Source: an uncultured SAR116 cluster alpha proteobacterium (lineage in GTDB: Bacteria; Pseudomonadota; Alphaproteobacteria; Puniceispirillales; Puniceispirillaceae). Taken from it: a stretch of 64,000 bases of DNA. The DNA is taken from positions 1 through 64,000 of the forward strand of contig CACNQE010000006.1 in assembly GCA_902622515.1 (NCBI GenBank). Reading direction: 5' to 3'. Each line of letters starts with the position of its first letter. Within the stretch, counting starts at the first letter, position 1. The notes below the pieces were generated by a model. The model saw nothing but the letters and a program-made list of their open reading frames with translations. It was not told the DNA's origin and searched no databases. This document shows positions 23,766 to 39,376 of this stretch, piece by piece. The position numbers were made by a program, and so were the translations under genes.

Positions 23766-24026
23766 CAAGGACCAAGGGCCGCGGATCGCGTTCCTTGGTT
23801 CTCGGATCGGGGTTACTGATGCCGTTTGGCAATCAGCTTGGCGATTTGTTCGAGGGGGCGGGGGATATTATTGCCTTGTCTGCAGCTGTTGGACCACGGA
23901 CCTTTAATGAATCGGGACGTTTATGCTAATGTGGTTTTATTAAGGTCGTTTTCTCAAATGGGATAATCCAAAGCTAATTTTAATCTCTAAAGTTAATAGA
24001 ACCATCTATATTGTAATGATAATTAA

Positions 24027-24911
24027 ATGAATATATTAAGATTTTTTAAATTAAATGCTTTTTACTATCCCCGGCTAATAATTTGGTTAGCGTCGATCAT
24101 TATTTTTGATGGTATAATTTTCTTTTTCATCAGTCAGATATCTACAGTAGACCTTCATTCTAATGCAAGACAATTCAATTTTGTATCCAAGATAGAGTCA
24201 GAAAAAATGGGAAAACAGTTTATAAACTATACCATTAGTGAAGTTTATCAAAAAGGTCATAAAGTTTTGTCGAAGGCAAGTGTTGAGCAACAACGTGTAG
24301 AAAATATATTATCAAAATTAGACAGTGCTTCTCCTTGGTTTGCTCGAAAAGATGTCAATATAGATATCGTTGAGTATCACGAGAAAAATGCACTGTATTA
24401 TGGTGCTGGTCATATTATAATTTTTACAGGTTTACTAAATGTTGTGAATGATGACGAGTTAGCTTTTGTGATATCCCATGAAATAATTCACATGTTGAGC
24501 AACCATCTTGAAGAAAATTATACAATCGCTAATTCTAAATCGACCAAAAGATTTTTTAATTTAGAAGAAGTGCTTTTAAAGCAACATGTAAAACAAGAGG
24601 AGGAAGCAGACAATTTTGGTGTTCATTTGGTTGCAAATGCAAAATTTGATCATTGTGGAATTTATACTCTAAGAAAAAAAATTGAGCCCCATCTGATAAG
24701 CAAATCTGGAAAAAAGAAAACTATCGATGACTGCGTGATGATTAGTGAAAACTTGGACACGCTACTTCCAAGCAAGATAAAAAATAGCGTCCTCGAATGC
24801 TCTAAAATATCGTGTAAGTTGAAAATGAGATATCTAGATTACATCCCTTTAAACGGCTTAGTAGCATTCATAAAGTTGATAAATTCATCATATTATCTAT
24901 TCCAGAAGTAG
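24027..24911 (+). CDS. M48 family metallopeptidase
   Basis: This 294-aa zinc peptidase has an N-terminal transmembrane helix (about 17-38) and a periplasm-facing domain. The zinc motif is HEIIHMLSNH (His151, Glu152, His155), and the third ligand lies in QEEEADNFG (about 190-198). A GAGHIIIFTGLLNVVNDDELAFVIS stretch ahead of the motif is typical of M48 proteins (BepA/LoiP-like). The C-terminal part is short and lacks TPRs. It lies 107 bp ahead of a small secreted protein gene, and substrates are unknown. Confidence 0.85.
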   Translation: MNILRFFKLNAFYYPRLIIWLASIIIFDGIIFFFISQISTVDLHSNARQFNFVSKIESEKMGKQFINYTISEVYQKGHKVLSKASVEQQRVENILSKLDSASPWFARKDVNIDIVEYHEKNALYYGAGHIIIFTGLLNVVNDDELAFVISHEIIHMLSNHLEENYTIANSKSTKRFFNLEEVLLKQHVKQEEEADNFGVHLVANAKFDHCGIYTLRKKIEPHLISKSGKKKTIDDCVMISENLDTLLPSKIKNSVLECSKISCKLKMRYLDYIPLNGLVAFIKLINSSYYLFQK

Positions 24912-25018
24912 ATTTGTGCTGATGTTAGTCATCATCTATTTTTATTTCATAGTTTTTTTATCACAAAAATAGTATATTTATTTGTAATGAAGAGACTAAA
25001 CCTGCAGGTTAATAACTA

Positions 25019-25393
25019 ATGAATTCTGTTTTTTTGAAATTTATTGCAAGCTCTTTAATTCTTTTTATTCTTTTTTTCATAAAAACAGCAAATTCATCTC
25101 AGTATCGAACACTATCTGAAACAGATGTACCGTTAAGCGAATGTTGGTATGTTCTAGAAAATGGCAATATTAATGCTAAACTTTCATCAGCATCTAGCCA
25201 GAATAATAACTTCACACACTACATTTTTTTCAAGAGCAGTATATATAGGATTGAAATTAATTGGAAAAGAATTCCCACTATTTTTTGCGAAAAAATAACA
25301 TATTTTGAAGATGTGAAGGAAAATTGGCAATCTTATAGCCAAGATACCGGAGAATGGATATTTTTAGATGACGAGAAAGGTAAAAACAAATAA
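25019..25393 (+). CDS. hypothetical secreted protein, 124 aa
   Basis: The first ~27 residues form a hydrophobic signal or anchor (LKFIASSLILFILFFIKTANS). The remainder is a small polar domain with two cysteines (in SECWYVL and TIFCEKI) that may form a disulfide in the periplasm. I do not recognise a family. It follows the M48 peptidase in the same direction and converges on the di-heme gene. Confidence 0.55.
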   Translation: MNSVFLKFIASSLILFILFFIKTANSSQYRTLSETDVPLSECWYVLENGNINAKLSSASSQNNNFTHYIFFKSSIYRIEINWKRIPTIFCEKITYFEDVKENWQSYSQDTGEWIFLDDEKGKNK

Positions 25394-25402
25394 TAATACT
25401 TT

Positions 25403-25996
25403 TTATTTTTTTTCCCGATGAACAAAATTTGATATGAATTCATGGTTAAAAATCATCTTTTTGTCCCACAATGGAGCAGTTCTTTTTAAACCATACCCAA
25501 CATCATGAAGCAAAAAATCGCTATAGGGGAAAACCATTTTTTCCTCCAAAATATAACTTTCTAACACATGACATGACGAACATCCATGTTCAACAAATAT
25601 TTTGGAAGCGGAAGGTTCAAGTACTTGGTGTGTCGGTTCAGGAGATAAGCTTTTAAATAACTTCCGGATGTTATCCATTTCTAGCTGGGAATTGATATTA
25701 ATATCATGCACTTCACTCGCGATATCAGCAAAATCTTCAAATTTAAAGGCTGCCAGATTGCTACCCCATTTTGCTATTAAAGGCGTTCCACCTCCATTTA
25801 CAATACTTATCTGACCTGAAATGCCATCATCATTCAAATCAAAGGGATCAAAAAATAGCAATGACCAGGTATCAGGCAGACCCTCAATTTCTTTGACGCC
25901 CGTAATATTCAGTTTTCCATTATCTGTCAAATGACAAGACAAACATTTTGAAACGCTATCTACAGCAAAAACCTCTATCGGTTCTGTCAAAATCAA
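25403..25996 (-). CDS. short di-heme protein, DUF1111 (thiol oxidoreductase-like) family
   Basis: This is a predicted periplasmic c-type cytochrome. Two heme motifs are seen, CLSCH (Cys18, Cys21, His22) and CSSCH (139-143). The C-terminal FPYSDFLLHDVG (156-167) and RTAPLW (172-177) are signatures of the DUF1111 di-heme family. At ~200 aa it is less than half the usual family length. The TTG at 25,996 would start inside the signal peptide. The frame is open upstream (…RQLAKVYLLIILIL), overlapping the end of the neighbouring gene, but offers no ATG, so the true start may be a rare codon or the gene may be damaged. It follows the PHO-box-preceded gene at 26,020. Confidence 0.7.
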   Translation of the reverse strand: MILTEPIEVFAVDSVSKCLSCHLTDNGKLNITGVKEIEGLPDTWSLLFFDPFDLNDDGISGQISIVNGGGTPLIAKWGSNLAAFKFEDFADIASEVHDININSQLEMDNIRKLFKSLSPEPTHQVLEPSASKIFVEHGCSSCHVLESYILEEKMVFPYSDFLLHDVGYGLKRTAPLWDKKMIFNHEFISNFVHREKK

Positions 25997-26019
25997 GATA
26001 ATGAGTAGATATACTTTTG

Positions 26020-26928
26020 CTAGCTGACGAATAATTTGGATGCTTTCTCAAGCTGCAAACCTAATGCAGCTGCTTTTTTTGTTATCTCGATTAATTCATT
26101 GCTACCTGCGGCTATGACTGATTCTCCATATTGCCCGGAGGTAGTGTTTCTTAGAGTTTCCAAAAGTAATGATAATTCCATATTTATTTCGTCTTCCAAT
26201 TGCGGGCTACGTATAGCAATAAATGGCTCCATATTTCTCCAAAATGCCATTACCCCAATGACCCTATGTCTGAATATAAAGCCATCTATTTCGCTCCAGC
26301 CAGATTCAAATCCCGTATCTGCAATACTCTTAACAAGATAATTAGACATAGAAACCAAAATCTCTTCCATAATCTCGTCGTCTTCATACAAAACTTCTTT
26401 ACTTGCAATTAGAAAATCCAACTGTTTAACAAGGGAACCTGTCTCAGAGTTAAGATTACTCAAGGCATTTCGAACATTTTCGATTGCACTTGAACAAACA
26501 TCATCATAGCATTCTTGTCTAATTGCTTTTTCTAATTCCAACAAATAAATTGGTTTGATGGGCTTTAGTTCATCCTCTACTTCAAAAATCCAAAAATTGG
26601 AATTATATCGTTTTAGTATTGTAGAAAATGAGCGTAATGCGCGTTTTTTAAATTTGCTATAATCTGTAATATTTTCGCTATCTATGGAAGCTAATAGTTG
26701 CGAGCTTATCATTTCGACCGCTTGCATACCGCCTTTTGCAAGCTCCCAGTTTACAAGAGCAGCCTCTTTCACACTCAGTTGGGGATTATAACTACTGGTG
26801 TCTGCTGACCTGACGCTTGCTTTAGAAGTCTCGTTTGCTATTACGGTATATGGCGAGTTTATTACGAATAAACCTAGTGCAATAACAAATAGTTTAACAT
26901 ATGAAGGAAATATAGCCAATTGTACCAT
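26020..26928 (-). CDS. unknown periplasmic all-helical protein
   Basis: This is a ~302-aa protein of no family I recognise. From the chosen ATG (MVQLAIFPSYVKLFVIALGL) it has a clear signal peptide, then a mostly helical, acidic chain with a Cys pair (QECYDDVCSS). It contains MAFWRNMEPFIAIRSPQLED, faintly reminiscent of imelysin/EfeO helical proteins. An upstream ATG at 26,955 exists. I prefer 26,928 because the PHO-box-like site then lies 51 bp away, as at the other genes. The DUF1111 gene follows almost directly, suggesting a two-gene operon. Confidence 0.6.
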   Translation of the reverse strand: MVQLAIFPSYVKLFVIALGLFVINSPYTVIANETSKASVRSADTSSYNPQLSVKEAALVNWELAKGGMQAVEMISSQLLASIDSENITDYSKFKKRALRSFSTILKRYNSNFWIFEVEDELKPIKPIYLLELEKAIRQECYDDVCSSAIENVRNALSNLNSETGSLVKQLDFLIASKEVLYEDDEIMEEILVSMSNYLVKSIADTGFESGWSEIDGFIFRHRVIGVMAFWRNMEPFIAIRSPQLEDEINMELSLLLETLRNTTSGQYGESVIAAGSNELIEITKKAAALGLQLEKASKLFVS

Positions 26929-26979
26929 TGTGAATTTACCAAATTGATTGAACATTTGAAAAAATTAAACTCAAAAAAT

Positions 26980-26997
26980 ATTACATTTTTATGAATT
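26980..26997 (-). promoter_or_regulatory. PHO-box-like site before the 26,020 gene
   Basis: The minus-strand sequence is AATTCAT-AAAA-ATGTAAT, matching the PhoB consensus CTGTCAT-AAAA-CTGTCAT at 13 of 18 positions with the correct 7-4-7 layout. Confidence 0.55.
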
Positions 26998-27066
26998 TAT
27001 TCCGGTTATTTAAAATAATATAATTTTTATTCAATCTTAGTTCCATTTTTCCCAATTCTTAAATTG

Positions 27067-27714
27067 TTAAGTTCTCGATTTGGCTAATTTACCCATTTGT
27101 TCTTTAGTTAAAGGAAGCAAAACACCTTTAGGATAGTTAAACAGTATCAATTCACCACTTCCAACTGGCAAGCCTGTTATAGCGGTGATAATGTCCTGAT
27201 GTGTAACCATTAGGTATATTTGTTTTAGGCTAATGTTTTTTATTAAATTATTTAGTACAAGAAGGGTCTCTTTTTTATCTACGAAACCTTGATAGAAAGT
27301 ATTAAGACCTGAAAATTTTTCGACTTTAATGTTGTCGAGTAGAACTGCCGTATCGAACGACCTGCACCACTCACTAGATAGTATTTTGTTAAAATTTAAA
27401 TCAGACTGTTTGAATAAATGCCCCGTTTGTTTGGATAATTGTCGACCCTCTTGTGATAAATTTCTTTGAGTTGAACAATCGAATTTCGAAAAGTTATCAG
27501 GGTCGCCCGTTCCAGGTGCTTTTTCGTGTCTCATAAATATTATATTAGCGTTTATTGCCTTTATTATTTCATCAAGCGTTTGAGACTCAAAATTTTTAAA
27601 ATCCAATATTATATACTTTATTTTATCAGAATTTGAGTGATCTTCAGCTAAACTGTAATTGTGTAAAAAAAATAAGTTAAGAATAATAAAAATTCGAATA
27701 TACAATGTATTCAT
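27067..27714 (-). CDS. secreted histidine phosphatase family protein
   Basis: This 215-aa branch-2-like histidine phosphatase has an N-terminal signal peptide (IRIFIILNLFFLHNYSLA, cleavage near 23). The catalytic motif is IIFMRHEKAPG (Arg62, His63), with Glu where RHG is common. A second histidine is in LMVTHQDIITAITG. It is likely a periplasmic phosphomonoesterase. It starts immediately after the terminator hairpin of the PhoX-like gene, so expression probably depends on read-through or a promoter overlapping the hairpin. Confidence 0.78.
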   Translation of the reverse strand: MNTLYIRIFIILNLFFLHNYSLAEDHSNSDKIKYIILDFKNFESQTLDEIIKAINANIIFMRHEKAPGTGDPDNFSKFDCSTQRNLSQEGRQLSKQTGHLFKQSDLNFNKILSSEWCRSFDTAVLLDNIKVEKFSGLNTFYQGFVDKKETLLVLNNLIKNISLKQIYLMVTHQDIITAITGLPVGSGELILFNYPKGVLLPLTKEQMGKLAKSRT

Positions 27715-27715
27715 C

Positions 27716-27748
27716 GTTAAAAAAACGGGGAAATTAATTCCCCGTTTT
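27716..27748 (-). terminator. rho-independent terminator after the PhoX-like gene
   Basis: Read leftward, AAAACGGGGAA-TTAA-TTTCCCCGTTTT forms a strong GC stem followed by a run of T. It lies between the PhoX-like stop (27,765) and the next ATG (27,714). Confidence 0.85.
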
Positions 27749-27764
27749 CCTCAAATTAGTGTTT

Positions 27765-29837
27765 TTAGTTTGGCAGATTCATATTAAACAAAAATAACTG
27801 GCCACCTTGGTCACCCTTTACTTGCTCTACCATACCACCGGATTCACCTTTATGCTGAACGACGCCAAAAAACGTAGAGTCTGCTAGAGAAACTGTTTCA
27901 TTGATTTGCTGTTCACCAACACCAGCAAGTTCTTCCATCGTGTAAAATGAACCATCTGATTTTTTGGTTATCATAGCGGTGACATTCCAACTCCCTGAAA
28001 ATTCAGAAGAAGTCGCCTTTGAGAAAGAACCACCTAGTGCGGACACACCTGCAGCAGCCCTAGGATTTTGTTTTCCGCCAGCTTGTGCTAGGAAGTAGCC
28101 AACCCCAGACTCAGCAAGCTGAAATGTATCAGGATTGATTGGGAGTGCCATTTTGCGCTCTCCAAACTCATTTCCTGAGTCTTCATCTAATATTAGAACG
28201 TCCGCATCGGAAGTTTTAACCCATTGAAGCCCGTCTGGGGCAACTAATTGTGCTCGGCCATCTTCCCATGTTGAGGCATCGCCCATACCGCCATGCTTAA
28301 TTCCTTTGCCTCCTGTCTCAAGAGTAAGGGCTCCATCAATTGCTGCAAGTGTTCTGCTAACATCAGCAGATATTAAGGCCGGTAGTTCACCATTTGCTGC
28401 GTCTAATTCCGCAGCAAGCTCAGTGAATTCCACACCTAACAGACCGCCCTTATTCGTCATATTTTGAAAATATCTGAACTTAGAGATGTCGGGATCGACT
28501 GCTGGGTGTTCCGTTTTTGAGTCCCCAACAAAATATGTATGACCTGCCGGCTGTTCCTCAGCCAACTGCCATTTTTGCATTTCGGTATCCTTAACTGCTG
28601 GAGTAGTATCCCAGCCACCCCACTGGTAGCTAGTTGGTACGAATTTAGCTGAAAAGTTATTTGATGCATTTGGATTTTGAAGGTAAGAATCCATCATATT
28701 CTCAAGAGTATCAATCTTTTCAATGCCGAGTGAAGCGAAATCTTCATTAGCGACGGCCATCCCATACAGTTTACCATAGAGCAATCCATTTCGAGCTAAA
28801 AATTTATCTCTTTCTGATGCTGTTCCGTTTTGATCCACAACATTATTGTCGGCGTCTACTCCCTTTTTTCCGATGTATATCTTTAGTGGGGCAGGCTCTA
28901 CGCCGTGGTTGTAACCAGCCATAACTGCAACAACGTAGTCTTTATGACCTGAATTTACGGGTAAAATTTTCTCATACCCAGTTTGACCCATTGCTGGAAC
29001 AGTGTAGGCTACTCCGTTTTTTACATCGACAGCGATAGAGGCAAGACCCAAGGTGTCATGGGTGTTTATACCGGACTCTTCAAACATTCTTTGAATATTC
29101 CATTCTTCTGCAGCGAACCAAATGTCATCTGCAAACCCAATGTCATTTCCATATTTATTTGCTTTTTCAAGATGCGCGCCACAAAAAGACTGAAAGAAAA
29201 AGTCGCCCTCAGTAAGCTTATATTTTTCGTCGAATTCCACAACGGTTCCATCTGCTAGAGTTTGGTTTCCCCAAATACCGCCTTCAGATTTTGGTTTAAC
29301 TATATTTCCAAATTGGTTATAGACGGTATCGAATATTTTACCTGAAGTGATAAACATCTCATCTGCAGTCTTATCGTTGTTTAAAAAATCGGCAAATTCG
29401 GCGCGGTCGAAGTCAATTGTGTGGATGTGAGAGCCAGTAAATTTCACTCCATTCTGCATTTCCCAACCGTAAGTTTCATTGCTCATAGTAGCATAAGATT
29501 CGGATTGATAACCAACACGAATTGTGTTTTCATCAGCTAACCATACAGCGTTTCCATCCGGATAACCGGTTAACGCTAGGCCATTGACTGGGTCTACTTC
29601 ACCAACGTTGGCAAGAATCTTCATATTTCTGATAAATGGAAAGTCTACATCGCCGCTTTTACCATCAGTAAGTTCATTTGGACTATCAGCTGTGCTGGCT
29701 TCTGCAATTAAAGCTGAACCTGAACCAATATAGGATGGACCGTGGCCGCCAGCCAATGCGGTACCAGTTAAAGCAGTCGAGCAGAGTAATAAGGTGGCTA
29801 AGGATTGTCTTAGCATTGACGTGGTATTTTTATTCAT
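27765..29837 (-). CDS. secreted PhoX-like (DUF839) protein, predicted phosphatase
   Basis: This 690-aa exported protein has a signal peptide ending near ALAGGHG (about 29). The mature part resembles the PhoX/DUF839 beta-propeller phosphatase family: GYPDGNAVWLADENTIRVGYQSES, ADDIWFAAEEW, DVLILDEDSGNEFGERK and a C-terminal FFGVVQHKGE, where PhoX proteins have QHPGE. The many Asp/Glu-Gly-Asn segments fit calcium and iron coordination, but I cannot assign the metal ligands. A triple PHO-box array lies upstream and a strong terminator downstream, so it is probably a single highly expressed phosphate-starvation gene. PhoX identity is by pattern only. Confidence 0.7.
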   Translation of the reverse strand: MNKNTTSMLRQSLATLLLCSTALTGTALAGGHGPSYIGSGSALIAEASTADSPNELTDGKSGDVDFPFIRNMKILANVGEVDPVNGLALTGYPDGNAVWLADENTIRVGYQSESYATMSNETYGWEMQNGVKFTGSHIHTIDFDRAEFADFLNNDKTADEMFITSGKIFDTVYNQFGNIVKPKSEGGIWGNQTLADGTVVEFDEKYKLTEGDFFFQSFCGAHLEKANKYGNDIGFADDIWFAAEEWNIQRMFEESGINTHDTLGLASIAVDVKNGVAYTVPAMGQTGYEKILPVNSGHKDYVVAVMAGYNHGVEPAPLKIYIGKKGVDADNNVVDQNGTASERDKFLARNGLLYGKLYGMAVANEDFASLGIEKIDTLENMMDSYLQNPNASNNFSAKFVPTSYQWGGWDTTPAVKDTEMQKWQLAEEQPAGHTYFVGDSKTEHPAVDPDISKFRYFQNMTNKGGLLGVEFTELAAELDAANGELPALISADVSRTLAAIDGALTLETGGKGIKHGGMGDASTWEDGRAQLVAPDGLQWVKTSDADVLILDEDSGNEFGERKMALPINPDTFQLAESGVGYFLAQAGGKQNPRAAAGVSALGGSFSKATSSEFSGSWNVTAMITKKSDGSFYTMEELAGVGEQQINETVSLADSTFFGVVQHKGESGGMVEQVKGDQGGQLFLFNMNLPN

Positions 29838-29898
29838 TTTTTTGCCTCTAAAATTTTACATTATTAGTTGAAATGAAGCAAAAGAGTGCATGAAATAT

Positions 29899-29927
29899 GT
29901 TACATTTTTGTGACTGTTTTTTGACAA
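29899..29927 (-). promoter_or_regulatory. triple PHO-box array before the PhoX-like gene
   Basis: On the minus strand three 7-mers recur with 4-bp A-tracts between them: TTGTCAA, CAGTCAC and ATGTAAC, i.e. an 11-bp period over 29 bp. The first two match the PhoB consensus best. The array ends 61 bp before the ATG. Confidence 0.75.
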
Positions 29928-30013
29928 TTTTGTAAAATTTAAAACTTCATCTTGTCACATTACAGAAGTAGCGTTTTACTATAAGTATGATGGGAGACTG
30001 GGAGATTTTGTAA

Positions 30014-31786
30014 ATGAGAATTAATCCTTTATATAGAGTAGCAATTTCTCTGGTATTGGCCACTCTAGGAATTTTAGCGGCCTCTGGATTTATCAACTAC
30101 AGAATGACAAAAACTTACGACCAATTGAGTTTGGAATTTTTCAATAAACAACTTCAAAAACCTATTGATGCTGAAGTTTTGGATCAAATACAATTATACG
30201 AACCTAAGTTAAAAGCAGCATCATATGATGTCGCACAGTCAGCTAATTTTAGAAAGGCTAGTTCGAATTATCTTGATGCTGAAAATGCACCCCCCGAAGA
30301 TTATGACCCTGAACCAGCTTTATGGGATTTAAGAATAGAAACCCGAAAATTAATGGATACAGCTATTTTATCTACGGATAAAAACCTTAACGTAAGAGGA
30401 ATTTCTTACATCCTGAAAAAAAAGAAGAACGTAACATTTTCAGAATGGAGAGAGACCTCTGAGAAACATGATCAATTTCCCGATGAAATTATTAAAAAAA
30501 TAGTGGAGCGTAAAAAAGCACATAAGTTTTTAATGCCGGTATATTATTGGATTGATAACGGAATGCCGACCGCAACATCAGTTGTTCCTATAGGAAGATT
30601 TGATTATTCGGGTTATTTGCTTGTTCATGCCAGTTTGTTAGATGTATTGAGTGCACTTGATAAAAAATTAGGTGCCGAGATACAATTTCTTTCGGCTAAA
30701 GATAAAAAGGTGATTTATACCCTTCCAAATATTAAAATCACAAAAGATGCCAAAATAACAGAATTTTTATCTCCTCTTAAAAGCGATTCCAAAAAAACTT
30801 ATGGGCTTATGATTAATGATAAAGTCACGAACCAATTAGCATCCATTAAAGTTACAGCTGATATTACCGAACTGGATAAAAAGTTAGCTTCCGTAAGAAT
30901 TGAGTCGTTTGTTCTTTTCGCAGTGGTGGTTGTTTTAATCGCGTTTATTGCTGACGGATTAGTCATAGTTTTATTCCGGAGGGTGTTTCTAAAACAAGTG
31001 GCCGCTGAGGAAGAGATACAAAAGTCCATTCGTTATGCAGGTAGAATACAAAGAACATTACTTCCTAAATTTGAACCTCAAATAATTGAGATGGATGTTG
31101 TGTGGCAGCCCAGAGACATAGTGGGTGGTGACTTGTATATGATACATGAGTCAGATGAGAAACTCATAATCGTTCTTATCGATTGCACAGGCCACGGCGT
31201 TCCTGGAGGATTTCTATCGGCAGTTGCCCATTCTGTTGTTGATAGGGTTATTACAGACAACAACCACAAAGATGCGGGAGATTACTTATCTGAAATCAAT
31301 ACTTTATTCAAAGAGTTACTCAATCAAAAAGATAAGAAAAATGCTACTTCTAATGAAGGGATGGACGGCGGTATCTTTGTTTTTGACAAAACATTGAATA
31401 TGGCAACTTTCTCTGGAGCTGCAACTAGCTTATTTTTAACATTACCAGGTCAAGGTGTCCAAGAAGTTAGAGGAGATAGAAAGAACGTTGGAGGCATTAG
31501 AACCCCAATAAGCTACAGATTTCCTACTCAAAAAGTTGAAGTTGGGGCTTTCATTTACACTATGAACACGGATGGCATAAATGATACGATGAGTTCTGAG
31601 AAAAAACCTGTTGCGTTTGGAAAAAAGAGACTAATTACTCAACTAGAAAAAAACAATAAATTGGAACCAAAACGCACAAACCAGATAGTTATGCAAGCTT
31701 TGAACGAATATAAGGGGACTGCGCCTTTTCGAGATGACATAACTTTATTTTCATTCGTTTTTAAGGATAAAGTTTTAAACACGTAG
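30014..31786 (+). CDS. membrane sensor PP2C phosphatase (SpoIIE/SiaA-like)
   Basis: This 590-aa protein has a TM helix at about 8-27, a ~270-residue periplasmic sensor region, a TM at about 297-321 and a cytoplasmic PP2C/SpoIIE domain. Catalytic features are YAGRIQRTLLPKF, the metal aspartates Asp373 (VGGDLY) and Asp390 (DCTGHGVPGG), and C-terminal NTDGINDT and DDITLFSF. This is the layout of SiaA, which dephosphorylates SiaC. SiaC (DUF1987) and SiaB (DUF6272) homologs lie 2 kb downstream. A GGGAG ribosome-binding site precedes the ATG. The following PstS-like and cyclase genes are tightly spaced, so they form an operon. Confidence 0.85.
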   Translation: MRINPLYRVAISLVLATLGILAASGFINYRMTKTYDQLSLEFFNKQLQKPIDAEVLDQIQLYEPKLKAASYDVAQSANFRKASSNYLDAENAPPEDYDPEPALWDLRIETRKLMDTAILSTDKNLNVRGISYILKKKKNVTFSEWRETSEKHDQFPDEIIKKIVERKKAHKFLMPVYYWIDNGMPTATSVVPIGRFDYSGYLLVHASLLDVLSALDKKLGAEIQFLSAKDKKVIYTLPNIKITKDAKITEFLSPLKSDSKKTYGLMINDKVTNQLASIKVTADITELDKKLASVRIESFVLFAVVVVLIAFIADGLVIVLFRRVFLKQVAAEEEIQKSIRYAGRIQRTLLPKFEPQIIEMDVVWQPRDIVGGDLYMIHESDEKLIIVLIDCTGHGVPGGFLSAVAHSVVDRVITDNNHKDAGDYLSEINTLFKELLNQKDKKNATSNEGMDGGIFVFDKTLNMATFSGAATSLFLTLPGQGVQEVRGDRKNVGGIRTPISYRFPTQKVEVGAFIYTMNTDGINDTMSSEKKPVAFGKKRLITQLEKNNKLEPKRTNQIVMQALNEYKGTAPFRDDITLFSFVFKDKVLNT

Positions 31787-31820
31787 TTTGACCAAACTTC
31801 AACTGATAGGATTAGATGGT

Positions 31821-32810
31821 ATGTATATATTGATTTTATTAACGTTCCTAACGATTAATTTGTCTGCAAACGCAATTGCTAGAGAAAATCTATATATTGT
31901 TGGTTCATCCACAATTTTTCCATTCTCGAGAGATGTAGCAAGTAACTTTGATAAAAATGATATTTTTCCTGAACCAGTCATTGAGTCGTCCGGGTCTGGT
32001 GATGGAATCAATTTGTTTTGTAAAGGTATCGGTGTTGAATTTCCAGATATCGCTGCTGCTTCAAGAAAAATTACAAAGCAGGAAATTGAAAACTGTGAAA
32101 AAAATAATGTTAATTCATTTACTGAATTAAAAATTGGCTTCGATGGAATTGCTTTTGTGACGTCTGGCGACATGGCTGGAAAAAAGCTTACCTTGAACAA
32201 CATCTGGAGAGCACTGTCCCCATTTGGCGGTGCAAATAATCAAAGAAATGTAAATTTACCTCAAGTTTGGTCTGAGATTGATGAAAACCTTCCTGAAAAA
32301 GAAATAAAAATTTTACTCCCTCCTCCAACATCAGGGACTAGAGATTCTTTGATCGAATTAGCCATGAAAAAAGGATGTATATTTCAAGGAGCCTCTGCTG
32401 CAGAGCGATGTAAAGAAATCAGAGAAGATAGAGCAGTAATAGAGGGAACAGAAGATGATTCTGCTCTGGTAAAATATTTAAAAGAAGACAACGATGTGGT
32501 TGGTGTTGTTGGTTATTCCTATTTAACTACTTACCAAAGCAGCATTTCAGCAATTGGTATAAATAAGATTTTTCCTCTACCAGTTACTATCCAGAATAGA
32601 ACTTATCCTCTTTCAAGACCTCTTTTTCTATATGCTAAAAATAAACATGTCGAGATCATACCCGGAATGGAGGAATTTTTATTTGAATTCATCTCTGATG
32701 CTGCTTTGGGAGAGCAGGGATATTTAATTGATGAAGGCCTTGTGCCTCTCATGATTGACGAATTTGAAGCAGAATTTGATAAATTTACAACAGAATTATA
32801 TAGGAAATGA
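31821..32810 (+). CDS. PstS-like periplasmic phosphate-binding protein (stand-alone)
   Basis: This ~329-aa substrate-binding protein of the phosphate family has a signal peptide MYILILLTFLTINLSANA and phosphate-loop motifs VGSSTIFPF and ESSGSGDGINLFCKG, then PDIAAASRKI and TSGTRDSLIELAMKKG. A TTG at 31,788 is an alternative start; ATG 31,821 has AGGATTAGATGGT upstream and gives a clean signal peptide. No pstC, pstA or pstB is present. Its place between a sensor phosphatase and a nucleotide cyclase suggests it presents phosphate status to the membrane sensor rather than feeding a transporter (inference). Confidence 0.82.
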   Translation: MYILILLTFLTINLSANAIARENLYIVGSSTIFPFSRDVASNFDKNDIFPEPVIESSGSGDGINLFCKGIGVEFPDIAAASRKITKQEIENCEKNNVNSFTELKIGFDGIAFVTSGDMAGKKLTLNNIWRALSPFGGANNQRNVNLPQVWSEIDENLPEKEIKILLPPPTSGTRDSLIELAMKKGCIFQGASAAERCKEIREDRAVIEGTEDDSALVKYLKEDNDVVGVVGYSYLTTYQSSISAIGINKIFPLPVTIQNRTYPLSRPLFLYAKNKHVEIIPGMEEFLFEFISDAALGEQGYLIDEGLVPLMIDEFEAEFDKFTTELYRK

Positions 32811-32840
32811 AAATGTTTTATTTGTTCTGGAAAATTGAAA

Positions 32841-33863
32841 ATGAAATCTAGCCAAATATTTGAGCACGAGATGAATGTTCTATCGAAAGCAGAAAAAGTG
32901 CGCGTTGAGGATGGTAATTCAGTCAGCTATGAAGATTTCGAAAAAATATTAGGAGAATATAAAAAACTCTTGAAAACGACTTCAAGGTTAGTAAGACATT
33001 CGGACAGAATGGAGATTAACCTCAACATTACAGCAAAAGAAGCTCGAGAAAAAAGCGAACAACTAGAGGCATTATCAAATCAGCTAGCTAAATATCTCTC
33101 CCCTCAAGTTTATGATTCAATATTCAGCGGCACGAGAGAAGTTTCTTTGACAAGTTCTAGAAAAAAACTTTCAATATTTTTTTCTGATATCGTAAATTTT
33201 ACAAAACTTTCTGAGAGCATAGAATCTGAGGAACTAACGGGATTACTTAATTATTATTTAACGGAAATGTCGCATATCGCTCTAAAACATGGTGCCACCA
33301 TCGATAAATATATTGGTGATGCTATTGTAATTTTTTTTGGGGACCCAGAAACTAAAGGTATTGAAGAAGACGCTTTAAGCTGTGTAAAAATGGCAATAGA
33401 GATGAAGTCTAAAATGTTTGAACTCAGAAACCACTGGAAGCACTATGGGTTAGCGGAACCTCTGCAATCAAGAATGGGTATTCATACTGGTTTTTGTACT
33501 GTTGGGAATTTTGGGTCCGAAAATAGAATGGATTATACTGTTATTGGCAGCGGTGTAAATCTTGCGGCACGTTTGGAGTCAGCTTCTGAACCAGGCAATA
33601 TATTGATGTCCTATGACACTTACAATTATGTGAAAAATACCATACCATGTGTTGAAAAAAAACAAATCTCAGCAAAAGGTTTTCCCGAGCCTATAAGAAC
33701 ATTCTCCGTAATTGATGAAAAAGACGTTGAAGACATAATTTCCATCACAATTGGAGAAAATAGGTTGGACGCTTCAGTCGAAGAGCTAAATAAAGAACAG
33801 CTTAAAAAGCTTAAAGATGATTTATGTTCTGCTCTAGACAATCTCGAAAATCACATGAGATAG
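32841..33863 (+). CDS. soluble class III adenylate/guanylate cyclase
   Basis: This 340-aa cytoplasmic protein has a helical N-terminus with a coiled-coil-like segment (about 35-80), the linker YLSPQVYDSIFSG, and a C-terminal class III cyclase domain. The metal aspartates are in FFSDIVNFT (Asp116) and KYIGDAIVIFFGDP (Asp160), and the catalytic GSGVNLAARLE is present. The last ~45 residues are acidic/helical (KEQLKKLKDDLCSALDNLENHM) and could bind a partner. It is third in the siaA-like operon and ends 9 bp from the convergent siaB stop. It occupies the functional slot that the diguanylate cyclase SiaD holds in the Pseudomonas system. TTG 32,835 is an alternative start. Confidence 0.87.
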   Translation: MKSSQIFEHEMNVLSKAEKVRVEDGNSVSYEDFEKILGEYKKLLKTTSRLVRHSDRMEINLNITAKEAREKSEQLEALSNQLAKYLSPQVYDSIFSGTREVSLTSSRKKLSIFFSDIVNFTKLSESIESEELTGLLNYYLTEMSHIALKHGATIDKYIGDAIVIFFGDPETKGIEEDALSCVKMAIEMKSKMFELRNHWKHYGLAEPLQSRMGIHTGFCTVGNFGSENRMDYTVIGSGVNLAARLESASEPGNILMSYDTYNYVKNTIPCVEKKQISAKGFPEPIRTFSVIDEKDVEDIISITIGENRLDASVEELNKEQLKKLKDDLCSALDNLENHMR

Positions 33864-33872
33864 TATAGAGTT

Positions 33873-34400
33873 TTAGCTCCATACTTTGAAAATGAATAAT
33901 ATCTTTCCATGCTCTTTAACAAATTCAAAATCCCACATATCACTTTTCCTTGCTATTTCTATAAACCCTAAACCGGCACCCTTGCTACCCTCTGGCGGGC
34001 CATCTTTAAGGCGATTTCTATAAGCAGATTTAAGTTCAGCACTATCCATTTTTTTCAATTCTGTTAAATCTCTGGTGAGGGTATTCATTTGCTTTTCATC
34101 TACAGCGTTTACAGCTTCAACCAAAACTTTATTGTCTGACAAGCTTAACGCTACAGTGCCAACACCAGAGGTTTCATCCTCTTGAATTGTTTTTTCGGAA
34201 GAGTATCTAATTATATTTTGGGCTTGTTCAACGAAGTTTCCAAAAACTATTTTTTCGGCGCGTTCATTTCCTGCATTCTCTCCAATTTCTAGTCTCACAG
34301 CAACCGATATAGCAGTTAATATCTTTTCGGTTAGAGGCCCTGAATAACAAAAAAAAGTTTTCCGTTTTAGAAGTATATTATGCAATTCATCGGTATTCAT
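33873..34400 (-). CDS. siaB: SiaB-type kinase (DUF6272)
   Basis: This 175-aa protein matches the DUF6272/SiaB family of GHKL-like serine/threonine kinases that phosphorylate SiaC. Key segments are TFFCYSGPLTEKIL at the N-terminus, the helix FGNFVEQAQNIIRYS with the N-box-like Glu/Asn, and the Gly-rich PPEGSKGAGLGFIEIARKS lid region. Its ATG overlaps the siaC stop by one base (TAATG), so the two are coupled and probably share the PHO-box promoter before siaC. It converges on the cyclase gene. Confidence 0.85.
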   Translation of the reverse strand: MNTDELHNILLKRKTFFCYSGPLTEKILTAISVAVRLEIGENAGNERAEKIVFGNFVEQAQNIIRYSSEKTIQEDETSGVGTVALSLSDNKVLVEAVNAVDEKQMNTLTRDLTELKKMDSAELKSAYRNRLKDGPPEGSKGAGLGFIEIARKSDMWDFEFVKEHGKILFIFKVWS

Positions 34401-34759
34401 TATATTTCCTGCATTTTGAATGTAGAATTCTTTATGTCTTCCTCGAAATCCTCTCCAGCTTCTTGCATTGAGTCATCCCCGCTCCTGTAATTCCATTTTA
34501 TTTGAACATCTAATCCATCAGCTGCTGCCTCGTCAACTTTGTCGAATATGTCAAAAAGTAATTTTGCTGATGAGCTGTTAAAATAGTAAAGTTCTAGTTC
34601 AAGAACAAACTTTTCAACGCTCAACAACTCTTGTTCTATTTCTTTCATTATTGGAATGGAAATTTCTGAAATATCTTCTGGATAGCATTCTCCCTTTATG
34701 AGGCAGTACCCACTATTTATCTCTATAAGCGGTGTTCTTGAAGTAGCTTCTATTTTCAT
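34400..34759 (-). CDS. siaC: SiaC-type phosphoprotein (DUF1987)
   Basis: This 119-aa switch protein shows the DUF1987 pattern: TPLIEINSGYCLIKGECYPED, then LELELYYFNSSSAKLLFDIFDKVD. The Ser run 62-64 in YFNSSSAK corresponds to the region where SiaC is phosphorylated (Thr in Pseudomonas), so here a serine may be used. I chose ATG 34,759 because AAGGAGAAGACAT precedes it; a longer frame from 34,843 would begin inside the promoter. In Pseudomonas, unphosphorylated SiaC binds and activates the diguanylate cyclase SiaD. No GGDEF gene is present here. Confidence 0.87.
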   Translation of the reverse strand: MKIEATSRTPLIEINSGYCLIKGECYPEDISEISIPIMKEIEQELLSVEKFVLELELYYFNSSSAKLLFDIFDKVDEAAADGLDVQIKWNYRSGDDSMQEAGEDFEEDIKNSTFKMQEI

Positions 34760-34793
34760 ATGTCTTCTCCTTATCAAACTTTTCCTTCGCAAT

Positions 34794-34811
34794 ATGACAA
34801 ATATATGAAAA
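34794..34811 (-). promoter_or_regulatory. PHO-box-like site before siaC-siaB
   Basis: The minus-strand sequence TTTTCAT-ATAT-TTGTCAT has the 7-4-7 layout and matches CTGTCAT halves closely. It lies 34 bp before the siaC ATG, the shortest such distance in the island. Confidence 0.65.
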
Positions 34812-34877
34812 ATATCAAAATATTTTCCTAAATTGTAAAGCATTACGTTATTTCAGCAATTATATTTATTTTTTGGT

Positions 34878-34895
34878 TTGTAATGAAACTGACAA
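34878..34895 (+). promoter_or_regulatory. PHO-box-like site before the DUF4856 gene
   Basis: The sequence TTGTAAT-GAAA-CTGACAA has the 7-4-7 layout and lies 45 bp before the ATG at 34,941. Together with the site at 34,794 it makes this a divergent PHO-type promoter region. Confidence 0.55.
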
Positions 34896-34940
34896 AATTT
34901 TTTTTTAAAAACTTATATAACAACAAAAAAGGTAGGTTTA

Positions 34941-36272
34941 ATGTTCAACTTCTTTGCTAGTGTAACTTTAGTTATTTTTTCGATAATTCCCAATGTTGCT
35001 ATGGCATTTGAAGTCTACGGACCGTATCCAATAACCCTAAAAGACTATCAGGGGCAGGAAACTAATTCCGTAAATTATTCTGAACAGATTTCTCAGCATC
35101 TGCTTCACAGTAGTCTAAAAAAAGCGATTAGCAGCGGTGCTTCATTGGAAGTTATGAATCGCTATTTTAATGGTGCTGAAGAGGAGTTATTGATACTTGA
35201 CCCAATATCATCTGATGGGTTTATATTTGATGGAAAAGATATAAACAAAATTGCAAAAACAAATCTATCTGGAATGGTATACAAAGATATTATCCCTGGC
35301 TGGCTGGGTGGTATGACAGCCAAGGAAGTTCTGTCATCTATGATTGAAAAAGCTGCCCAGAGTAAGAATGGATATGACCAAATACACGGATATGATTATG
35401 CTCAGCTAGTATCTAAATTTACTATGGGCGCAGTCTTTTATCACCAAGCGTGCGGTAACCACCTAAACAAGATGCTTGATGCTGACTATAAACCAAATAA
35501 TGCGCCTTATAAGAGCGGAGCTCATTATACTGGAAAAGAACATAGTTGGGATCAGGCCTTTGGCTATTGGGGCGCAGCTGCACATGGAGCAACCCTATCT
35601 GCCGTGCAAAATTATAACATCGCAAAACAGAAAAACGAAGTTTTTGCAGATTTTAACTTAGATGGTGTTGTAAATTTAATGTCTGAGATGAATTATGCAT
35701 ACGCCTATTATGCCTCCAGTTTTGATAAAAGTGGTTTGACCGATTATTATAATTTGATAACCAAGGCATTTATAGAGGGGCGTCAAATCATCACAGAAGC
35801 AAATGGAAATTTATTAAGTGAGGACACGCGTTCAGAACTTGAGGAAAAAGCTTGGATAATTTGCTCTAACTGGGAGCTAGTAATTTCTGAAGCTATCTTT
35901 AGATATGCGGGAATTATATACACAGATCTGGAAAATCTCACCGCAAATCATGGTGATAAAAAAGCGTATCGTGAATACGTAAAACATTGGGGAGAGCTAA
36001 AGGGATTTGCTTTATCCCTTCATACAGGTGGCAGAAGTTTAGGCGAACTTGGCACGCGTATTGACAATATTATTGGCTTAAGTCCTGTTGTTGGAAGAGT
36101 TTTTCCTGCCGAAATTGCTGAAAATAGCGTGCAAGTAACAGGAGTTAATTCTGATGGTAGTTTTGTTTTGAGTGATGCGAGTGCCGATGGATATATGAAG
36201 AACATGTTGAAATTACAAAAACTCCTCCAGGAAGAATTCGAAATCATGGCCAAAAATAATAACAAATTATAA
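34941..36272 (+). CDS. DUF4856 family exported protein
   Basis: This 443-aa protein has a signal peptide (FFASVTLVIFSIIPNVAMA) and the DUF4856 pattern: HSWDQAFGYWGAAAHG, DFNLDGVVNLMSEMNYAYAYYASS, and KHWGELKGFALSLHTGGRSLGELG near the C-terminus. In Bacteroidetes the family accompanies imelysin and DUF1111 proteins in presumed iron-uptake loci. Here a DUF1111 gene is also on the island, but a PHO-like site precedes this gene. The signal peptide shows no lipobox cysteine. It ends with a Lys/Asn tail. Confidence 0.78.
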   Translation: MFNFFASVTLVIFSIIPNVAMAFEVYGPYPITLKDYQGQETNSVNYSEQISQHLLHSSLKKAISSGASLEVMNRYFNGAEEELLILDPISSDGFIFDGKDINKIAKTNLSGMVYKDIIPGWLGGMTAKEVLSSMIEKAAQSKNGYDQIHGYDYAQLVSKFTMGAVFYHQACGNHLNKMLDADYKPNNAPYKSGAHYTGKEHSWDQAFGYWGAAAHGATLSAVQNYNIAKQKNEVFADFNLDGVVNLMSEMNYAYAYYASSFDKSGLTDYYNLITKAFIEGRQIITEANGNLLSEDTRSELEEKAWIICSNWELVISEAIFRYAGIIYTDLENLTANHGDKKAYREYVKHWGELKGFALSLHTGGRSLGELGTRIDNIIGLSPVVGRVFPAEIAENSVQVTGVNSDGSFVLSDASADGYMKNMLKLQKLLQEEFEIMAKNNNKL

Positions 36273-36431
36273 ACAAAATTTTTAAGCCTTAATTTATTCA
36301 ACTGGAGAAATCGTCAAATTTAATATGTCTCTCATCCCTTGCAATTTAGAAAGACGTTGGAGCGAATAAACGCTTTTGGTCTGAAGAAGTGTCTAGATCG
36401 TTCCAAAAATTTTTGTTCATAAAACTATAAT

Positions 36432-36638
36432 TTATTTTAACCTTTTTGTTCTTTCAATAATATTAGCTGGGTTAATATCTATTGTTTTTGACATGGTGCC
36501 GTGAACATTATTTTTACCAATATTTTGGCTTGTCCATTCTTCAGCACTTGAATTTAGTAAGTATTCAATTTGATTAATTATCTCATCTATCAATGGTTTT
36601 TCTTTGTCGTCGTCATGCCACGTAATTTCAATTTTCAT
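36432..36638 (-). CDS. hypothetical protein, 68 aa
   Basis: This small acidic-then-basic protein (MKIEITWHDDDKEKPLIDEI…) has no recognised domain. AAGGCGA lies 7 bases before the ATG and supports translation. The 159 bp between it and the DUF4856 gene hold nothing I can name. Confidence 0.45.
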   Translation of the reverse strand: MKIEITWHDDDKEKPLIDEIINQIEYLLNSSAEEWTSQNIGKNNVHGTMSKTIDINPANIIERTKRLK

Positions 36639-36749
36639 TTGATATCGCCTTTTTGAATGTTGACTTTGGGGGTATTTTTTTAGTTCGGCGGAATTTAGAC
36701 AAAAATTTGATATTTTATTGATTAGGCGAACAAAAACTTATTTCCAAAA

Positions 36750-36825
36750 AACTGTTTAAACGGTGCCCGGACCAAGGTCCGGAGTGCGAGCATGGGATGT
36801 TCTTGGAACAGGCTTCTAAGGTGAA
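36750..36825. repeat. GC-rich palindromic patch, possible left-end repeat relic
   Basis: The perfect palindrome CCGGACC-AA-GGTCCGG (36,767-36,782) sits in otherwise AT-rich DNA. It is flanked by ACTGTTT and GGAACAGG words that also occur in the island's left end (ACTGTTTCC…GGAACAGG). The rest of the 276-bp gap contains no gene. Confidence 0.4.
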
Positions 36826-36884
36826 TTTATAATATATACAATTAGTAACTAGCAGCACCCTTAACCAAGACCAGTATTTATGGT

Positions 36885-37042
36885 ATAATATTACCCTATA
36901 ATAGGGTGTAATTAATGTTTACAAAAAATAATGTTACCATTGGACTAGAATGGCGTTTTGGGCCTTCTTGGCCGGGGCAAAGGTGCTTTGCAAAGACTAG
37001 GCGGGGAAGCAAGTGCCAACGCCCTGCAAACAAAAGAAACGG
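36885..37042 (+). repeat. left arm of mini-element inverted repeat
   Basis: This segment holds the promoter/operator and the first ~43 codons of the HGG gene. It is repeated in inverted orientation, with scattered substitutions, at about 40,835-40,995. The pair brackets a ~4.1-kb unit with the polymerase gene. Confidence 0.8.
36893..36907. promoter_or_regulatory. operator-like palindrome at the HGG gene
   Basis: The perfect palindrome ACCCTAT-A-ATAGGGT lies directly before the start codon, and its right arm overlaps the likely Shine-Dalgarno AGGGTG. A second, slightly changed copy lies at 40,971-40,986 before the truncated HGG copy, so binding by a repressor is plausible. Confidence 0.5.
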
Positions 37043-37274: not shown

Positions 37275-37616
37275 GCTCTTAAACTCAATATAGGTGCACC
37301 GGCCTTGTTTGGTATCCAGAAGGATGCCGGGGCACTCACGTCGGATTTTGGCAATTACGCGTGAGCGGGTATCCTTGTCCTTGATGCCAGCACACTCCCA
37401 GTGCTTTCGCGTAAGCTTGATCCTTGGCCTTTCCTCGATGTCAATAAACGCTCTTGCTACCAGTATCAACCGCGAGGTGGCATCAGGTATATGGCTACAC
37501 ATCCAATGGAAGGTGACTGGCCCTTTCAAGAACAGCTCTTCCCGGGCTTTTTGTCGGGCTGCATGTCGTTGCTGCGAGGCAGAACTGAGGCGCGCTCTGA
37601 TTTCCCCGGTCATCAT
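37269..37616 (-). CDS. hypothetical protein, 115 aa, polymerase-linked
   Basis: This basic protein has an N-terminal helix rich in Arg/Ala/Gln (SASQQRHAARQKAREEL) and a C-terminal part (RVIAKIRRECPGILLDTKQGRCTYIEF). No family is recognised. Its ATG overlaps the polymerase stop by 4 bp (ATGA), so it is translated with the polymerase. It converges on the HGG gene with a 6-bp overlap. Confidence 0.6.
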   Translation of the reverse strand: MMTGEIRARLSSASQQRHAARQKAREELFLKGPVTFHWMCSHIPDATSRLILVARAFIDIEERPRIKLTRKHWECAGIKDKDTRSRVIAKIRRECPGILLDTKQGRCTYIEFKSL

Positions 37617-39376
37617 GCCACCTCTTCACCAAGGCGAGACTGGATGAACGACCATATGTTGGCACCGCGCCCATCTATATATCGATCCGGCCACCGCACG
37701 ATCTTGGCATCGACACGGCACTGCCTGCCGGGGCCCAACACCCACTCGCTGGCCATCTGCATAAGGCTAGTGGCCCGTGCAACATGCTGATCAATCTCGT
37801 TAAGGGGTGCTTCTATTAGGATCGCGTCATGCACTGGAGCACATATGCCAATGCCTGCTTCCTCCAGAGCAATGCAAGCCAAGCGAAGCATTTCAGACCC
37901 ATTTGCCTGCATGGGCCAATTCAAGAAGGTATTTTCTTTCACATCCTTACCTTTACCGGCACGTATCTTCCAGCCATAGATAGTATGAAGTTCTACTCCC
38001 GCTAGGCCAGCGTTAACATTTTTGTCTGTCCATCTCCAGAAAGTGCGATAAACGTCCTTATGGCTCTGCAGCAGGTCCTCGGCCTCGAGAACATGCAGAC
38101 TAGCTTTTTGCCCCATGCCGTAAGCCGACATGCCATATTGGACGCCCAGCATTATCACTTTGCAGGCATCGCGCACGACTTCGTGGCTTTCCTTTGTGGC
38201 ACCAATGGGTGCTAGACCCGCATCGATTGCAAACTGAATGTAGGGATCACCAGACACGTATGCTTCCCACAAGGCTTCATCATTTGAAAGGCATGCAGCG
38301 ATCGCAATCTCCTGAGAGCTAAAATCAAGATAGGCAAGTGCTGTTCCCGGCTCCGGCTTTATCAATGACCGCGCCCAGGCAGGGAGACCAAAAATAAACT
38401 TTGTGGTACTTGGTTGATTGCGCCCTGTCTTTGATTGGAACGGGGACAGCAAGGTTCGGTTGCGGCCATCACACCCAACTGTCAACTTAATTTCGCGCAT
38501 CTCAGCGAGTGTCTTCCTAAGTTCCCGGAGATCGGCCATCTGTGGATAGCGCAGCGCCATCATCTTGAAGGTGTCACGATCCAGTTGCAATTCACCTGAA
38601 AAGAGACGTGGCCATGCGATATCTTGTGTTGTGAGATAACGTTCAAACAAATGCGTTCGAAAGCTGCCCTGCTCATAGACCCCATAGGCTTGGTCCGTCT
38701 CTTCGATCAATGCCTCTTTAAGGTGGTACCAATTATTCCGCATCAGATTTAGTATCTTTAAGTCAATGGGCACGCCTCGAAACTCCATCCTCGCAACGGT
38801 TGCTACATAACGACCACGAGCCAATGTCCTCTCAAGGTCCATTGACTTGAGTGGCCAGCGATTAAGCATTGCTGAAAAGAGTCTAGCCAGCCCATCCACA
38901 TCACTTTGGCAGTAATCAAGGATGGCAAGCCGCTCATCGGATGACCATGGTCCGCCAGTCAGGATGCGGTGGCGCATGTCGTCCTTGGCTACCTGGTCAC
39001 CATCAGTAATGCCAAAATACTGGAGCGCACCTATCTGACCGTTCCCAAATGGTAACGTCTCACCATTTGTCTGGCATCGGAACTCGGCGTGACAGTCGAA
39101 GATGTTGGTTGGCAGATCCCATCCTAATGCCAAAAACACGGAGAACTCTGCTGACGCAAAAAAGGCGACAAACAGAGCATCTGCTCCGATATCGAAGGGG
39201 GGCTGATTCATCTGGCGAAGTTCATCCATCCAATACCGGTTTACATTACCTGACAGCAACTCACGCACCACAAGGCAAACGGGTGTCTTCTGATCTCCAT
39301 CATCACCAAAGAACTCTGTATCTACGATATGGATTTGTGGGAAGGGGAGTTCATGACATGCATGGTAGATCATCAC
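37613..39376 (-). CDS. family A DNA polymerase (PolA-like, with 3'-5' exonuclease)
   Basis: This 587-aa mobile-element polymerase has an exonuclease I motif (HIVDTEF, Asp19/Glu21), DYCQSDVDGLARLF (Asp154/Asp159 region), polymerase motif A AYLDFSSQEIAIAA (Asp351), motif B RDACKVIMLGVQYGMSAYG (Arg402, Lys406, Tyr414) and motif C PVHDAIL (His516, Asp517). It lacks the 5'-nuclease domain of PolI, as phage-type enzymes do. It is coupled by 4-bp overlaps to the 191-aa gene upstream and the 115-aa gene downstream. It is clearly richer in GC than the surrounding phosphate block. Confidence 0.9.
   Translation of the reverse strand: MMIYHACHELPFPQIHIVDTEFFGDDGDQKTPVCLVVRELLSGNVNRYWMDELRQMNQPPFDIGADALFVAFFASAEFSVFLALGWDLPTNIFDCHAEFRCQTNGETLPFGNGQIGALQYFGITDGDQVAKDDMRHRILTGGPWSSDERLAILDYCQSDVDGLARLFSAMLNRWPLKSMDLERTLARGRYVATVARMEFRGVPIDLKILNLMRNNWYHLKEALIEETDQAYGVYEQGSFRTHLFERYLTTQDIAWPRLFSGELQLDRDTFKMMALRYPQMADLRELRKTLAEMREIKLTVGCDGRNRTLLSPFQSKTGRNQPSTTKFIFGLPAWARSLIKPEPGTALAYLDFSSQEIAIAACLSNDEALWEAYVSGDPYIQFAIDAGLAPIGATKESHEVVRDACKVIMLGVQYGMSAYGMGQKASLHVLEAEDLLQSHKDVYRTFWRWTDKNVNAGLAGVELHTIYGWKIRAGKGKDVKENTFLNWPMQANGSEMLRLACIALEEAGIGICAPVHDAILIEAPLNEIDQHVARATSLMQMASEWVLGPGRQCRVDAKIVRWPDRYIDGRGANIWSFIQSRLGEEVA

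Follow-up and report, generated by a model that had tools for sequence, protein, structure and literature searches.

A SiaABC-type partner switch with a class III nucleotide cyclase as its predicted output in a SAR116 alphaproteobacterium

A five-gene locus on contig CACNQE010000006.1 of an uncultured SAR116 cluster alphaproteobacterium (GenBank assembly GCA_902622515.1) probably encodes a SiaABC partner switch that activates a class III, most likely adenylate, cyclase in place of the diguanylate cyclase SiaD, acting through a docking motif on the stalk of the enzyme. The locus lies within a stretch of 64,000 nucleotides (positions 1 to 64,000 of the contig), hereafter the window, in which a PP2C phosphatase (SiaA), a DUF6272 kinase (SiaB), and a DUF1987 switch protein (SiaC) are encoded together, alongside the cyclase and a PstS-like protein. 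The initial annotation of the window had listed these five genes; all were found where it placed them, and Pfam confirms each with a match above the curated cut-off. The SiaA/B/C/D network was reportedly first described in a 2020 paper in the EMBO Journal. It has been cited as a merger of partner switching and cyclic di-GMP signaling (PMC9239204).

The docking motif and its association with siaC

The most telling evidence, absent from the initial annotation, is a SiaC-docking motif in the N-terminal part of the cyclase. According to the crystallographic study of SiaC with SiaD (PMC8457831), Thr68 of SiaC and its neighbors touch S82, Q86, and D83 of SiaD, while other SiaC residues touch R84 and additional positions along the stalk helix. 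The SiaD stalk has two copies of the motif, and in the complex two stalks lie side by side, held by SiaC, adjacent to the catalytic domains. The output protein encoded in the window carries this motif on its own stalk: S54, D55, R56, and E58 align with S82, D83, R84, and Q86 of SiaD. The same motif recurs in the N-terminal helix of cyclases adjacent to SiaC (RLVRHSDRME in the window, RMMRLSDRNE in locus L060), the counterpart in a Pseudomonas-type SiaD (locus L092) being KVARISDRYQ.

A 34-column stalk model, for which 29 GGDEF partners were the only training sequences, was applied to 5,295 open reading frames (ORFs) from SiaC neighborhoods and from the cyclase loci of the window's own genome. 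The window cyclase scores 18.3 bits with this model (E 3.7e-4). Sequences not used for training gave 44 matches up to E 0.05, of which 42 are encoded at most 1.05 kb from siaC. The remaining two are a protein next to a siaC truncated at the contig end (L045) and a SpoIIE phosphatase (L071:13007-14038), which itself bears the docking motif 5.7 kb from siaC. When the N-terminus of the window cyclase was shuffled 10,000 times, the highest score was 9.8 bits, against 21.8 for the real sequence. Among 48 distinct cyclase ORFs of the order located away from SiaC, only four were reported, the best at 1.3 bits versus 19.2 for the window cyclase in the same search. Some of the 48 begin at the catalytic domain and have no stalk, and others combine catalytic domains close to that of the window with PAS-like, GAF-like, or coil N-termini, as judged by eye. 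A profile (A5) spanning the entire N-terminal module has the window cyclase as its sole match in the window's own genome.

SiaC scores above the family cut-off in 17 of the 136 genomes of the order and in one of the ten genomes of the window's genus. Ten of these 17, among them that of the window, have a class III cyclase next to siaC. The nine besides the window share the order siaB, siaC, cyclase on one strand, in most cases with the cyclase abutting or overlapping siaC, and with siaA facing these genes (in genome G109, the contig end truncates siaC). Such siaB-siaC-cyclase operons recur in other classes and phyla. Named examples are those of Azospirillum canadense DS2, Microvirga massiliensis JC119, Roseospirillum parvum 930I, and Magnetovibrio blakemorei MV-1; further cyclase-linked loci come from metagenome-assembled genomes (MAGs) of Magnetococcales and Gammaproteobacteria and from two Pseudodesulfovibrio MAGs. 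The nearest motif-bearing gene encodes a cyclase in 22 of 80 named loci, a set that comprises the best 80 of 579, was seeded with cyclase-linked SiaC, and is hence biased.

A six-frame search of the window's own genome (95% complete) found no GGDEF domain and hence no output of the SiaD type, and the same was true of the 16 other SiaC-bearing genomes of the order; the search was positive in eight of 14 control genomes. The initial annotation had proposed that SiaC may control a class III cyclase. Two findings that would have counted against this proposal, a SiaD-type partner encoded elsewhere in the genome and a co-location seen in no other genome, did not materialize, and the proposal is now well supported in silico by the conserved pairing, the missing GGDEF domain, and the docking motif.

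The switch proteins themselves match solved ones. Against PDB sequences, the sole match of the window SiaA is 6k4e (E 1.1e-34) and that of SiaB is chain A of 6kko (E 7.1e-16), both of which we take to be P. aeruginosa Sia proteins; SiaC matches only the DUF1987 chains of 6kko, 6kkp, and 7e6g and 6k4f, at about 4e-12. Of these entries, 6KKP and 6K4F represent P. aeruginosa Sia proteins according to PMC8457831 and PMC7647112. The window SiaC has a phosphorylatable Ser together with the equivalents of Y65 and N67 (YFNSSS), and the position of Thr68 is occupied by Ser in 111 of the 121 family rows examined and by Thr in ten. In an interface analysis of 121 SiaC-stalk pairs, for which phylogeny was not controlled and with L033 (partly N) outside the motif counts, Y65 and N67 of SiaC are invariant; on the stalk, D83 is kept in 121 of 121, S82 in 118, and R84 in 111. 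Taken together, the sequence data lend strong indirect support to binding of SiaC to the cyclase stalk.

Catalytic domain, mode of action, and rival explanations

The metal Asp pair, the substrate-site Lys and Thr, and the transition-state Asn and Arg are all present in the window cyclase. The combination of Lys with D-Y-T is the adenylate-type set, and from the active-site residues we infer ATP as the substrate, the enzyme being most likely an adenylate cyclase. The best Foldseek match is CyaB (3r5g), with 55% identity over the domain and a template modeling score of 0.93 by the target's length. It is improbable that the switch works as proposed with cyclic GMP or a mixture as the product: the substrate-site Lys does vary, being found in 24 of 37 linked cyclases, and at the two positions examined in the substrate region, Gln and His occupy the eight operon cyclases of the order whose sequence is readable, but the window has the adenylate-type residues, and its closest solved relative, CyaB, is an adenylyl cyclase. 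Four cNMP_binding matches in the own genome do not discriminate between cyclic AMP and cyclic GMP; class III cyclase matches in this genome number ten, including a partial one at the end of a contig.

The AlphaFold2 (AF2) model consists of a short helix, a 57-residue helix bearing the motif, and the cyclase fold (mean predicted local distance difference test 78.7, predicted template modeling score 0.61). The helical N-terminus and the soluble nature of the cyclase, both put forward in the initial annotation, agree with this model and with a hydropathy scan, which found no hydrophobic (membrane) windows in the protein. The acidic C-terminal tail was considered as a SiaC site and dropped, because an unlinked cyclase of the own genome (L003) bears a similar tail, as judged by eye.

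That SiaC binds the cyclase, that phosphorylation governs this binding, and that the effect is activating and not inhibitory are inferred by analogy with the SiaC-SiaD pair. SiaB would phosphorylate SiaC on Ser62 and thereby switch it off, and SiaA, on sensing a signal, perhaps with help from the PstS-like protein, would dephosphorylate it. Free SiaC would then bind RLVRHSDRME on the long N-terminal helix of the cyclase and hold two stalk helices together, rendering the dimeric enzyme active. That SiaC docks on the stalk and instead inhibits, sequesters, or localizes the cyclase seems distinctly improbable. Class III cyclases, like SiaD in the complex, are active as dimers, and the side-by-side placement of two SiaD stalks near the catalytic domains, described above, likewise speaks against such a role. 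On the other side, the evidence gathered here covers the docking module alone, with the direction of the effect borrowed from SiaD, and the pentameric state of inactive SiaD, described in PMC8457831, need not hold for a class III cyclase.

Several observations weigh against activation of the cyclase by SiaC through the stalk. The window stalk has one motif versus two in SiaD, the window SiaC has Ser and Ala at the partner positions R103 and L107 in the alignment with its PDB match, and in PDB the module profile ranked SiaD, at E 0.16, behind several designed helical proteins, so that this match was not counted as support. The cyclase gene belongs to the facing siaA operon, outside the siaCB operon. 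Seven of the 17 SiaC genomes of the order (G067, G116, G119, G121, G129, G130, and G133) have siaBC and no linked cyclase, and the best match of the module profile in these seven has E 0.138. Co-occurrence, in contrast, speaks for the proposed switch. In 385 genomes of the class searched for SiaC, 13 have SiaC over the cut-off (in a 14th, G304, it falls below), and the A5 module (E ≤ 1e-4) was found in the same 13, always beside siaC, and in none of the 372 others; however, at least five of the 13 supplied rows of A5, some others are close relatives of those, and the search scored at most 15 first-look candidates per genome. The places G571:C32 and G635:C178 (fragments over the cut-off) and G304:C4 (below it) were left out before loci were counted.

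A similar caution applies to covariation, whose top pair over the 121 pairs, with kinship uncontrolled, joins position 75 of SiaC with position 81 of the stalk. The window has F75 with H81, ten GGDEF loci have F75 with R81, and the rest have mostly M with an aliphatic residue. Eighteen contact pairs, preset from the prose of PMC8457831, outscore shuffled SiaC columns (p 0.0014), and most of the other top-25 covarying pairs are absent from this list. Because the paper leaves some residues unpaired and kinship is uncontrolled, we treat covariation as supporting evidence only.

The position of the cyclase on the strand opposite to siaCB and the seven genomes without a linked cyclase would also fit a shared neighborhood and nothing more, in which SiaC has another target and the cyclase helix is an ordinary signaling coil; this is very unlikely, given that the motif is absent from the 48 unlinked cyclase ORFs, tracks SiaC across the 385 genomes, and matches the contact residues of SiaD, and that no other protein of the own genome bears the module.

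Output enzymes of SiaC in other bacteria

The locus tally comprised 184 loci, or 156 after removal of near-identical SiaC. The nearest motif-bearing protein is a class III cyclase in 34 of these, a GGDEF protein in 31, an HD protein in 31, and a histidine kinase in 26; none was found in 34 loci, four of which (L033, partly N; L036; L039; L233) have a cyclase without a detected motif. The motif protein is encoded at most 100 bp from siaC in 112 of 121 pairs, and of the 153 motif matches at E < 0.1 among 9,209 neighborhood ORFs, 149 lie within 1.5 kb of SiaC. In a phylum sample of 80 loci that was not seeded with cyclases, the counts are 23 GGDEF, 23 HD, 10 class III cyclases including that of the window, three histidine kinases, and 21 without a motif protein; ten loci of a class sample gave eight GGDEF and two histidine kinases. 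By Pfam, the sampled HD proteins consist of GAF and HD_5, one of them without GAF, and the histidine kinases of HisKA and HATPase. At four siaBC loci (L194, L223, L230, and L245), a class III cyclase and a histidine kinase both bear the motif; three of these kinases were checked with Pfam.

Some further arrangements were observed at these loci. A kinase and an HD protein, both motif-bearing, occur at one siaBC locus (L191). At kinase-output loci, another kinase-like gene often precedes siaB in place of the PP2C phosphatase, e.g., in Magnetospirillum (L211, L231, and L232), and the gene before siaB at L228:5055-6350 encodes a receiver-HisKA-HATPase protein.

These data suggest that the SiaC switch serves four or more classes of output enzyme. 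We consider it likely that SiaC is a general plug-in hub, in which one transferable docking helix, tracking siaC, places unrelated catalytic proteins (diguanylate cyclases, class III cyclases, GAF-HD_5 (HD-GYP-like) proteins, and histidine kinases) under the SiaA/SiaB loop, sometimes with two outputs per SiaC, as in the four loci named above, and that the cyclase branch was recruited repeatedly, in the window probably separately. A tree built from the catalytic domains of 37 linked and 36 unlinked cyclases requires four changes of the linked state, of which well supported branches force two or more; given the long branches, this count is uncertain. The window cyclase groups weakly with unlinked cyclases of its own order; hence, class III cyclases probably acquired the docking module on more than one occasion. 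Orthology of the window cyclase to those in the siaBC-cyclase operons of its order is not supported: its identity is 45-48% with operon cyclases from other lineages and 32-34% with those of its order.

A second SiaC-like protein of the own genome (C4:40264-40512) was left out of the system because it scores 22.1 bits, below the family cut-off of 24.5, and lies inside a flagellar cluster. This diverged protein, L046:8280-8585 in the locus set, adjoins flgM and a DUF2802 gene, has a counterpart in the genus-mate G098 (L027, L047), and may be a SiaC-type motility regulator; L046 and L047 stand outside the locus tally.

Locus layout and comparison with known systems

Coordinates of the sia locus in the window
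Feature	Position	Strand	Basis
siaA, PP2C/SpoIIE phosphatase	30014..31786	+	Pfam SpoIIE/PP2C E 7e-13; PDB match; two predicted membrane segments
PstS-like substrate-binding protein	31788..32810	+	Pfam PBP_like_2 1.7e-31; possible ATG 31821
Class III nucleotide cyclase, N-terminal SiaC-docking stalk	32841..33863	+	Guanylate_cyc 2.5e-28 (ORF 32835-33863)
Cyclase long stalk helix	32919..33089	+	AF2 model; 57 residues, residues 27-83 from M at 32841
SiaC-docking motif RLVRHSDRME, cyclase residues 49-58	32985..33014	+	Sequence comparison with SiaD stalk, GGDEF-partner model
siaB, DUF6272 kinase	33873..34400	-	Pfam DUF6272 4.4e-31; E..QN and SKGAG motifs present
siaC, DUF1987 switch protein	34400..34759	-	Pfam SiaC 3.8e-28 (ORF 34400-34843)
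Codon of SiaC Ser62, position of phosphorylated Thr68 in P. aeruginosa SiaC	34574..34576	-	YFNSSS vs YLNTSS

The stop of siaC and the start of siaB share one base, and 9 bp separate the stops of the cyclase and siaB genes, which lie tail to tail. The siaC gene stands as annotated initially, but its start is most likely ATG 34759, with AAGGAG upstream, and not 34811; the cyclase most likely begins at ATG 32841. In SiaA, the hydropathy scan predicts two membrane segments, in agreement with the initial annotation, with hydrophobic windows around residues 3-24 and as far as about residue 327 (outer windows of 28), and the region between them may be periplasmic. The PstS-like protein is probably exported and could deliver a ligand to SiaA; this role is speculation, as no other SiaC locus examined has such a gene. 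Most operons of the order have a conserved gene of about 100 amino acids between the cyclase and siaA (L029:9447-9749, L034:4131-4433, L041:9389-9691, and others), which persists in L040 and L042, two loci lacking the cyclase, and is absent from the window.

Positions 24000-37000 of the window are AT-rich, with guanine-cytosine content mostly 0.30-0.39 and one bin at 0.45, compared with 0.41-0.48 before and 0.40-0.53 after. Given this stretch and the presence of SiaC in one of ten genomes of the genus, the sia locus may lie in an island. Beside the AT-rich stretch, a gene on the minus strand (37613-39376) encodes 587 amino acids matching DNA polymerase family A. Upstream of siaA, on the opposite strand (27765-29837, minus), a predicted protein of 690 amino acids has no Pfam match at E 0.01.

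If this assignment is correct, serine/threonine partner switching is tied directly to a cyclic AMP-type cyclase, SiaABC is a widespread, output-indifferent control module reaching beyond the cyclic di-GMP circuit of Pseudomonas, and bacteria can swap the second messenger while retaining the same input circuit. Many uncharacterized DUF1987/DUF6272 loci would gain a testable function with named residues to mutate. The initial annotation knew of no described system of this make-up; in a literature search with preprints and most subscription papers outside its scope, none pairing SiaC with a class III cyclase appears among the matches listed, by titles and beginnings of abstracts. DUF1987 proteins have been suggested to modulate adjacent proteins, and the accessible sections of that paper name no other outputs (PMC8457831).

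Three groups of known systems are comparable. CyaB (3r5g) and CyaC (1wc1) share the catalytic fold and residues of the window cyclase. Their input parts are of membrane and receiver/PAS types, whereas that of the window cyclase is a SiaC-docking stalk. The HsbA-HsbD and BgrV-BgrR pairs, partner switches on diguanylate cyclases cited in PMC8457831, likewise have a STAS-like switch protein under kinase/phosphatase control that modulates a second-messenger enzyme, but their switch proteins belong to the STAS family rather than to DUF1987, and their output is cyclic di-GMP. The closest counterpart is SiaABCD of P. aeruginosa, as described in PMC8457831, PMC7647112, and PMC7278518: the window has homologs of SiaA, SiaB, and SiaC, a phosphorylatable residue at the position of Thr68, and a docking motif on the N-terminal stalk helix of the output enzyme. 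It differs in that this enzyme belongs to the class III cyclases rather than to the GGDEF enzymes, has a single docking motif where SiaD has two, is encoded in the siaA operon facing siaCB, and is accompanied by an additional PstS-like gene.

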